Positions 57,072-62,023 of a stretch of DNA of 64,000 nucleotides are shown here, in pieces (within the stretch, counting starts at the first letter, position 1; every line of letters begins with the position of its first letter). The notes beneath the pieces are model-generated. The model made no database searches. It was given only the letters and a program-made list of their open reading frames with translations, and was not told where the DNA came from. The position numbers and the translations under genes were made by a program. The stretch covers positions 1-64,000 of the forward strand of contig JALSJN010000075.1 of assembly GCA_026989335.1 (NCBI GenBank), written 5' to 3'. The DNA is from Thiotrichaceae bacterium. GTDB taxonomy: Bacteria > Pseudomonadota > Gammaproteobacteria > Thiotrichales > Thiotrichaceae.

Positions 57072-57581
57072 CTACTTCTCCAAAAAACGTGGCATGATTT
57101 CGACCAAATTACACGGTTGGGTTGTTGCATCAAGCTGGTGTGAAATAATTCCATCCCAAGCGTCTTTGCAGGCCCCAGGTGAGCCCGGTAACGTAAAGAT
57201 TACCGTGCCATTGGCAAGCCCTGCAATTGCGCGCGACTGTATGGTTGAGGTTTTAATTAAGTCATAAGAGAGTTGACGAAAGATCTCACCAAAGCCATCA
57301 ATTTCTTTATCGTATAGCGGCTTCATCGCCTCTGGCGTTACATCACGCCCCGTTAAGCCGGTGCCACCAGTAGTAATAATTACTTGTACTTCTGGGTTGG
57401 CAATCCATGTTGATACCACCGCACGCATTTGGTAAATATCATCAATCACTATGTTCTTTTCGAATAAAATATGCCCAGCATTTGTGAGGCGATCTACTAG
57501 AAGATTTCCTGACTTATCATCAGCCTTGGTACGAGAATCCGAAACAGTCATTATGGCGATGTTTAGTGCTTTAAAATCCAT
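57072..57581 (-). CDS. moaB: Molybdopterin adenylyltransferase (MoaB/MogA family)
   Basis: A 169-residue protein with the MoCF-binding pattern IAIMTVSDSRTKADDKSG, VIITTGGTGLTGRDVTPEA and FTLPGSPGACKDAWDGII. The enzyme adenylates molybdopterin before metal insertion by MoeA. Length and the DSR start favour MoaB over MogA. First gene of the moaB-moeA-phhB operon. Confidence 0.92.
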   Translation of the reverse strand: MDFKALNIAIMTVSDSRTKADDKSGNLLVDRLTNAGHILFEKNIVIDDIYQMRAVVSTWIANPEVQVIITTGGTGLTGRDVTPEAMKPLYDKEIDGFGEIFRQLSYDLIKTSTIQSRAIAGLANGTVIFTLPGSPGACKDAWDGIISHQLDATTQPCNLVEIMPRFLEK

Positions 57582-57776
57582 TTATTGTCCTGCTATAAGT
57601 TATATCGAGTGAGTTGATTATAAGGTAAATATTATCAAGCGCTAATAATAAGACTATTTTTAACGATTGATGAGTTTATTAATCTAAAAAATAGAACGTA
57701 ATAATAAAAACAAACTATTTTACAGAATATAAAATCAGACTTACACTGTAAGACTAACAGTAAATAGGAGAATAAA

Positions 57777-58064
57777 ATGTCAAACGAAGGCTACCATGAA
57801 CCCATCAGTGAATTAACCGATGAAACCCGCGATATGCACCGCGCTATAACATCTTTAATGGAAGAGCTAGAAGCAGTTGATTGGTATAATCAACGTGTTG
57901 ATGCGTGTAAGGATGCAGAGCTAAAGGCGATTCTTGAACACAACCGTGATGAAGAGAAAGAACATGCCGCAATGGTATTGGAATGGATACGTCGTAAAGA
58001 CTCTGTTATGGATAAAGAGTTAAAATATTATTTATTTACGGATAAACCCATCGCACATAAATAG
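57777..58064 (+). CDS. Encapsulated-ferritin-like (EncFtn) protein without cargo tail
   Basis: A 95-residue helical protein closely resembling the Rhodospirillum rubrum encapsulated ferritin over its catalytic region: MEELEAVDWYNQRVDAC and HNRDEEKEHAAMVLEWIRR. The ferroxidase ligands correspond to E30, E60 and H63. These proteins form annular decamers whose two-helix subunits build the iron site at interfaces. Here the chain ends YYLFTDKPIAHK and lacks the long encapsulin-targeting tail, and no encapsulin gene adjoins it. AGGAG precedes the ATG. Glutathione reductase follows on the same strand. Confidence 0.88.
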   Translation: MSNEGYHEPISELTDETRDMHRAITSLMEELEAVDWYNQRVDACKDAELKAILEHNRDEEKEHAAMVLEWIRRKDSVMDKELKYYLFTDKPIAHK

Positions 58065-60335: not shown

Positions 60336-61670
60336 TTATTTAATCGCTAAACGTAAGTTTGTTTTAATCTCTTGGGTTAATTGCTCAAATACGCCCGCTT
60401 GTTCTGCATAGTTTTGCCAGTTTTTGACCACATCCATGACTTGATCAAAAATCTGCTGTGATTCTTTTTTGAAATTGCCAATCAGTTCTGCCACGACGAA
60501 TAGGTCATCGCGGCTAAAGTTATCGCGTTTTCCGTTGATGCTCATTTGGTGGGCATTGACCCACGGTGAGTCTTTTTTGTAGCTGTAGGCAATGTCAAAA
60601 GCGGGTGACAGTCGCCAAGCTGCTTTGGGATTGTCTAAAATAAAGCCGGTGTTTTTGGTGTGGTCGTCGTGGTTGCGTGCAATCACGTTAAAGACCATAC
60701 GGCGGTATATTTCGATGGCATCTTGTCGTGGTAGTTTGAGTTGTCTTGCGACGCTGAGCAGTTGTTCATAGCTGTAGCTGCCGGGTTGTTTGTAGTCGGC
60801 GTGGTCAATGGAACAGAGTGAGGCGTAGTGTTTTTTACGGTTAGGATTTTTGTCACTGCCACGGTCGAAGCGTTGGGTGATAAAGTGAGCGCGTTCGCCA
60901 TCGATGAATAATTCAGAATGCGAGATATTGATGCCAGCATCTTTTGCCATTAGGTAGTAGGCGTATTCCATGCGGCCGTATCCTTGCGGATCACCAAACA
61001 CTTCGCTGTCGGTTTTGTGTTCTTCCATCCCGTCAAATTTTAATAAGAAATGCTCAAAACCGGCGGGCATATCCACCTGACCTGAGCGTAATTCGGTGCG
61101 ATCTTTATTGATGGCAACCAGCGCTTTGGCACGCGCGCCACCCGCTGATGTGCCAACTTGAAACAGTGCGGACATGGCATCGTCGTTATCATCTTTGATA
61201 TTTTTTGCAAGCTTGCTACGCTGATCTAAAATTGTCTGTGCCATTTGGATTAATGAATTCAGCTCAAGTTGTTGGCTGGTGCTTTTGGCTCTAGCGATGG
61301 CAGGTTCAAACTCCAGTGCGCCCATGCCGCGGTTGCCGATATACAATAGGCGTTCCAGCGCATTGAATGAGTTGCTATCCCGTCCATTTCTTGCCAGCCA
61401 TGCGTTGATGACGGCATTACCAAAGTCATCGGGCAGGGTATCGGCAAATAGGGCAGGTAGCCCGTGATAGGTTGTGGGACTTAAGTTAGGAAATTGATAT
61501 TTTCGAGAGGCAGATGAACTAGTAGGTAGCGGCATATGGATGGGCGCAATTTCAACGCCGCTCTGAATCCAGTTGGATGAATATTCAAAGCGACTTATTT
61601 GGCTTGCAGGGTCATAGACCAGCGCGCCAACTAATTTCCCCCAAAGATGAATTTCCGCAAGATTTTGCAT
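60336..61670 (-). CDS. hipA: HipA-type serine/threonine-kinase toxin
   Basis: A 444-residue kinase of the type II toxin HipA family. N-terminal HipA_N-like region (GLPALFADTLPDDFGNAVIN), glycine-rich GTSAGGARAKALV (ATP loop), catalytic FNVIARNHDDHTKNTGFI with the N-x-x-D-D-H core, and metal-binding LSPAFDIAYS. E. coli HipA phosphorylates glutamyl-tRNA synthetase and causes persistence; the target here is unknown. It follows hipB by 14 bp, the canonical order. Confidence 0.9.
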   Translation of the reverse strand: MQNLAEIHLWGKLVGALVYDPASQISRFEYSSNWIQSGVEIAPIHMPLPTSSSASRKYQFPNLSPTTYHGLPALFADTLPDDFGNAVINAWLARNGRDSNSFNALERLLYIGNRGMGALEFEPAIARAKSTSQQLELNSLIQMAQTILDQRSKLAKNIKDDNDDAMSALFQVGTSAGGARAKALVAINKDRTELRSGQVDMPAGFEHFLLKFDGMEEHKTDSEVFGDPQGYGRMEYAYYLMAKDAGINISHSELFIDGERAHFITQRFDRGSDKNPNRKKHYASLCSIDHADYKQPGSYSYEQLLSVARQLKLPRQDAIEIYRRMVFNVIARNHDDHTKNTGFILDNPKAAWRLSPAFDIAYSYKKDSPWVNAHQMSINGKRDNFSRDDLFVVAELIGNFKKESQQIFDQVMDVVKNWQNYAEQAGVFEQLTQEIKTNLRLAIK

Positions 61671-61684
61671 CGTTTACGAGTACC

Positions 61685-62023
61685 TCACCAGCCTAAATCA
61701 GGCTTGGGTTCATTAACTTCATTATTGTGTTTTTTAGAGGCACGCTTGCGTTGTTTGCCTTTTAGCTTGAGTTGTTGCATTGGGCTAAAGCCTGTTTCGG
61801 GGATGAATTTTTCGAGTTGATCAAGCTGGTTTAGCACCCGTAAAACGGCAATAATATTTTCAAACTTGCCCGAGCCTTTAACCAAATTACGATACGATAC
61901 ACGTGACAAACCAATCTCATCAGCCAATTGTTGTTGAGTGAGATTTTGCTCCAAGCGGAGTCGCTCAATACGCTCACCAAGCTCTGCCGCAATCGCTTTG
62001 TTTGTCATGCCAGTAAAATTCAT
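61685..62023 (-). CDS. hipB: HipB-type antitoxin with Xre-family HTH
   Basis: A 112-residue protein with the HTH RIERLRLEQNLTQQQLADEI then GLSRVSYRNL (about 19-50) and a basic C-terminal tail (KLKGKQRKRASKKHNN) that may bind toxin or DNA. A downstream Met (62008) is also a plausible start. It should neutralise HipA and repress the operon through the palindrome upstream. Confidence 0.88.
   Translation of the reverse strand: MNFTGMTNKAIAAELGERIERLRLEQNLTQQQLADEIGLSRVSYRNLVKGSGKFENIIAVLRVLNQLDQLEKFIPETGFSPMQQLKLKGKQRKRASKKHNNEVNEPKPDLGW

Follow-up and report, generated by a model that had tools for sequence, protein, structure and literature searches.

The EncFtn of R. rubrum has its ferroxidase-center (FOC) residues at E32/Y39/E62/H65, its entry residues at E31/E34, and its exit residues at H57/E61/E64; without its shell, this protein oxidizes Fe(II), cannot store iron, and has no peroxidase activity (PMC5012862). 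A 2024 review (PMC11202242) describes the structure 3k6c as a decamer, classes the s-FLPs as encapsulated FLPs, and lists LFTDKPIAHE as a putative targeting peptide. The family name and NCBI annotation are also encapsulin-associated. Among peroxide defense systems, the genes encoding rubrerythrin, RFO (an Fe-S protein), and DUF3501 make up the aerobic-type rubrerythrin operon described in Cardenas 2016 (PMC5114695). Here we analyzed a stretch of 64,000 nucleotides (the window; positions 1 to 64,000 of contig JALSJN010000075.1, GenBank assembly GCA_026989335.1) from a Thiotrichaceae bacterium of the class Gammaproteobacteria, in which a short EncFtn gene precedes gor.

A tail-less EncFtn gene upstream of gor

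The predicted protein matched the EncFtn-like Pfam profile PF22277 (147.5 bits against a cutoff of 27; E = 1e-43; profile positions 2 to 85 of 85) and TIGR04535 of NCBIfam (135.8 bits against a cutoff of 125). PF22277 was its sole domain in the Pfam scan, with no match to the PF00210 ferritin domain. The closest sequence match in the PDB was Nitrosomonas europaea NE0167 (3k6c, 95 aa, 81% identical). A Foldseek search with the AlphaFold monomer, a helical hairpin with core pLDDT of >90, also returned 3k6c first (81% identity), followed by R. rubrum EncFtn (about 66%). By alignment, the FOC residues are E30/Y37/E60/H63, the entry residues E29/E32, and the exit residues H55/E59/E62, matching R. 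rubrum EncFtn at every position. Across relatives, 163/163 tail-less and 20/20 tailed proteins have identical residues at these positions, except at H55 (162/163 tail-less). The chain ends in ...YLFTDKPIAHK, 10 aa past the domain, and no GSLK- or GSL-type targeting motif was found there by sequence reading. These features place the protein in the known s-FLP class (short domain, no tail, no apparent targeting peptide). The Ala-His end (A93-H94 in the window protein) is kept in most tail-less EncFtns and missing from tailed ones. A genome search detected a single EncFtn copy.

Table 1. Features at the EncFtn locus of the window
Feature	Position	Strand	Basis
mogA-like molybdopterin gene, divergent	57072..57581	-	PF00994
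Candidate promoter/regulator element ATAAAAACAAACTATTTTACA, 21 bp	57704..57724	+	Alignment; conserved in G407 and G396
Ribosome-binding site of the EncFtn gene, AGGAG	57766..57770	+	Sequence reading; same in G407, GGAG in others
Tail-less EncFtn-like ferroxidase (s-FLP), 95 aa, ATG start	57777..58064	+	Sequence reading; PF22277, TIGR04535, 3k6c match, conserved catalytic residues
gor, glutathione-disulfide reductase, 466 aa	58119..59519	+	TIGR01421 and NF004776 over cutoff

The downstream gene gor starts 54 bp past the EncFtn stop on the same strand. It scored 574.8 bits against the TIGR01421 cutoff of 556 and was the sole glutathione reductase above the family cutoff in a search of the genome. 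A signal scan detected no terminator-like site between the two genes, and they are probably co-transcribed. The first-pass annotation had described an EncFtn with preserved catalytic residues, no cargo-loading tail, and glutathione reductase as the next gene. This description was right in each point, since the open reading frame, the residues, the missing tail, and gor were all confirmed.

Upstream of the gene, the 21-bp element is kept in two other species of the genus (with an exact match in G396) despite diverged flanking DNA. It occurs once in the window, with 0.02 occurrences expected, and overlaps a weak -35/-10-like sequence (57719-57747). Beside EncFtn genes outside the genus, loose matches at best were found, and in the signal scan neither sigma-70 promoter nor terminator signals exceeded chance. 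The element may serve as a promoter or bind a regulator. The mogA-like gene, a conserved EncFtn neighbor in G407 only, is not thought to be part of the EncFtn system. At 60336-62023 (minus strand), a HipA-like kinase gene and an upstream HTH gene are likely a toxin-antitoxin pair.

Peroxide-removal genes beside tail-less EncFtn

We surveyed 369 genomes of the class, retrieving every EncFtn locus and reading its C terminus. This yielded 85 tail-less loci and 20 loci with longer tails; the tail-less set includes two shortened or broken genes with a tail-less end (L114 and L115) and one gene with a non-targeting cationic tail (G074). Neighbors were analyzed with called open reading frames and fixed queries. 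For the linkage test, all loci and windows were searched with a single query set at a single threshold (45% identity), and 40 stretches of 20 kb from tail-less-EncFtn genomes, away from the gene, provided 80 control windows of 10 kb. Peroxide genes were detected at 29/85 tail-less loci versus 0/80 control windows (P = 3e-10) and 0/20 tailed, shell-linked loci (P = 0.001); these P values are to be read loosely, because the queries were picked from EncFtn neighborhoods after the loci had been viewed and related loci are not independent. At the other 56/85 tail-less loci, the same test found no such gene up to about 5 kb away.

Rubrerythrin, RFO, and/or DUF3501 genes were neighbors at 23 of the 85 tail-less loci, and EncFtn lay directly between RFO and DUF3501 at 17 of these 23. 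Many of the rubrerythrin-linked loci may share descent from a single arrangement. When the directly adjacent same-strand genes were scanned against Pfam without preselection, DUF3501 (17 loci) and Pyr_redox_2 (5 loci) were found downstream, and CCG, corresponding to RFO (16 loci), and AhpC-TSA (3 loci) upstream. Across genomes, tail-less EncFtn co-occurs with DUF3501 (odds ratio of 4.1; P = 5e-8, uncorrected for kinship). The gene order AhpC-EncFtn-thioredoxin reductase was found at L121, L123, and L134. At L121 (G066:C35), rubrerythrin, RFO, DUF3501, AhpC, tail-less EncFtn, and thioredoxin reductase genes stand in a row on one strand. OxyR-like genes, for which OxyR was the top NCBIfam match with a score under the cutoff, are divergent from the cluster at L248, L071, and L076 and close by at L070 and L145. 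The window genome has its rubrerythrin-RFO-DUF3501 operon on another contig, with no EncFtn there. Since a PF00210 profile search matched no ferritin in this genome except that rubrerythrin, the genome may have no dedicated ferroxidase other than the window EncFtn.

Conservation of the gor linkage, which the first-pass annotation had proposed checking, was limited to two other lineages and to the genus, where four of the five genomes with EncFtn show it. gor directly follows EncFtn in the window and in G407. In G412 and G396, a domain scan identified a Prx5-glutaredoxin fusion between the two genes; the same fusion is encoded elsewhere in the window genome and in G407 (84-85% identity). Outside the genus, L071 and L076 have a gor of this type (51% identity) near EncFtn and a catalase gene directly upstream; at L045 and L186, the genes after EncFtn encode Prx5 and a glutathione reductase of a second type. 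The catalase at L076 (5376-6722, between Prx5/Grx and EncFtn) is split into two frames (285 and 129 aa) and may be a broken gene. Among catalase candidates, only those of L071 and L076 were upheld: two 480-aa upstream open reading frames first taken for catalases turned out to encode MnmE and RadA, and two more were without any family match. The suggested link to redox stress is thus supported by the 29 positive loci and is wider than gor, whose linkage is a local case of a wider pairing rule of tail-less EncFtn with peroxide genes. The recurrence of four chemically unlike peroxide-removal modules is a stronger argument than the P values.

These neighborhoods could also be read in other ways. 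EncFtn might be an iron chaperone, not a detoxifying ferroxidase, and feed neighboring di-iron or heme enzymes (rubrerythrin, catalase). Although di-iron rubrerythrin is the commonest partner and catalase is present at two loci, we regard this as unlikely, given that several linked modules are iron free (AhpC, thioredoxin reductase, Prx5-glutaredoxin, and glutathione reductase), the window's gor included. It is also quite improbable that EncFtn serves general iron homeostasis with no special tie to peroxide and that its adjacency to gor is accidental. The small number of lineages with gor beside EncFtn (in G423 and in other genera of the family, the two are not adjacent) and the lack of a peroxide gene at most tail-less loci fit such an accident. 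The difference between EncFtn loci and controls does not, nor does the EncFtn-(Prx5/Grx)-gor order, which is present in four species of the genus and recurs at L071 and L076.

Targeting tails and shells across the class

A PF04454 profile search (family 1 encapsulins), with positive controls, found no encapsulin in the window genome (94.9% complete, 4.2% contamination), in agreement with the first-pass annotation. The family 2 shell profile PF19307 also gave no match, in a search whose positive controls were silent too. EncFtn is present in 16 of the 60 genomes of the window's family. The same PF04454 search detected encapsulin in 0 of the 15 others, two of which (G394 and G406) consist of one contig each and have a completeness rating of 100%.

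Across the class, EncFtn was found in 100/369 genomes and encapsulin in 19/369, all 19 within the 100. Every shell genome (19/19) has a long-tailed EncFtn, and 20/20 tailed loci are in encapsulin genomes, with the shell gene directly following wherever the contig permits. A GSL-type motif was recognizable in 18/20 tailed and 0/163 tail-less proteins. Tail-less forms only, and no PF04454 encapsulin, were found in 81 of the 100 EncFtn genomes, that is, in 81 of the 85 with tail-less EncFtn. Both forms are present in G014, G196, G236, and G247; only the tailed copy adjoins the shell gene, and the tail-less copy is elsewhere. Tail state is clustered on the EncFtn tree (3 changes versus 18.6 in shuffles, on a poorly resolved tree of 94 columns). 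Because the 81 genomes and all 15 relatives in the family lack a PF04454 encapsulin and only tailed copies adjoin shells, shell-free life is the rule for tail-less EncFtn in this class, and the earlier suggestion that the window protein acts free of a shell is supported.

That this EncFtn is instead cargo of an undetected or distant shell, loaded via its own C terminus, is highly improbable: the review's classification and putative peptide, a C-terminal ...AH conserved in 145/163 tail-less proteins, and shell searches that cover family 1 (PF04454) but had silent controls for family 2 are set against the shell-less genomes, single-contig ones of the same family among them, against adjacency to the shell of the tailed form only where both coexist, and against alignment of the LFTDKPIAHE stretch (YLFT..PI) with the final residues of the structured domain of tailed EncFtns, whose true targeting motif comes roughly 20 to 40 residues further.

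Several unusual loci were also recorded. Three species from a different genus of the window's family have an EncFtn (L074 in G074, L245 in G384, and L246 in G391) with a basic tail rich in Lys, Ala, and Pro, e.g., AKPKATPKAKKPAPKSE. These tails contain no targeting motif, the genomes have no encapsulin, and the tails are reminiscent of DNA-binding tails. L113 (G196:C227) is a 492-aa open frame that joins an EncFtn domain to the C-terminal half of an encapsulin, by fusion, deletion, or assembly. L114 (G002) and L115 (G027) retain no more than the C-terminal third of a tail-less EncFtn, in frames of 40 to 41 aa; stops are present in one of the two matches, and these copies are either decayed or contig errors.

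Proposed function and comparison with known systems

We propose that the window gene encodes a shell-independent EncFtn ferroxidase ring that would remove Fe(II) beside peroxide-scavenging systems, and we give this reading a probability of about two in three. The chain is predicted to fold as the usual helical hairpin and, since the 81%-identical 3k6c has been described as a decamer, most likely assembles into the D5 decameric ring of the family, with five di-iron ferroxidase centers. With no targeting peptide on the protein and no family 1 encapsulin in the genome, the ring would remain free in the cytoplasm and, under peroxide stress, would oxidize and thereby remove labile Fe(II). This removal would starve the Fenton reaction. 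Iron oxidation driven by O2 may release H2O2, and the neighboring enzymes would reduce H2O2, including any from ferroxidase turnover. The gor product would recycle GSH for the Prx5-glutaredoxin peroxidase (whose gene lies between EncFtn and gor in sister species and at another site in the window genome). Given that shell-less R. rubrum EncFtn oxidizes iron without storing it, a free ring would be expected to lower Fe(II) and not to bank iron; with no store for it, the cell would need some way to buffer the Fe(III) product. Dps-like use of H2O2 is unsupported, given the lack of peroxidase activity in R. rubrum EncFtn. The sequence and its residues, the lack of tail and shell, and the linkage to peroxide genes are observed; we infer the ring, its ferroxidase activity, co-transcription, OxyR-type control, and the fate of Fe(III).

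Tail-less EncFtn probably helps to protect cells from iron-plus-peroxide damage. For the class as a whole, we moderately favor the view that tail-less rings are not cargo but the prevailing form of the family, a distinct and often OxyR-linked ferroxidase module that pairs with each lineage's own peroxide-reducing system (rubrerythrin, AhpC, Prx5-glutathione, or catalase). The protein type itself is already known (s-FLP). The near-total absence of encapsulin among tail-less carriers and the placement in peroxide operons appear to be undescribed in the openly accessible literature, in which we found no report of a link between EncFtn and peroxide operons. If most members in the class are indeed shell-free and act in peroxide defense, then the encapsulin-associated annotation misleads. 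The stand-alone role of EncFtn would become testable, the shell-bound iron store may be a special case, and a gene frequent in the poorly understood rubrerythrin-DUF3501 operon would gain a testable function.

The rubrerythrin-RFO-DUF3501 operon shares the theme of peroxide defense and is the commonest partner of tail-less EncFtn, although the parts of PMC5114695 that describe it do not mention EncFtn by name. Dps, ferritin, and bacterioferritin resemble the proposed module in using iron oxidation as a defense against peroxide damage but are cages with inner storage and another fold size, and their PF00210 domain is unmatched by the window EncFtn. Encapsulated EncFtns (Rru_A0973, 5da5; Hoch_3836, 5n5f) share the fold, the FOC and entry/exit residues, and 57-66% domain identity; in contrast to the window protein, they have a 30- to 45-aa tail ending in GSLK and an adjoining shell gene. 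Most similar is the s-FLP NE0167, known from an unpublished apo structure (3k6c), which is of the same length, likewise tail-less, and 81% identical, with the same FOC residues and the shared C terminus IAH[EK].
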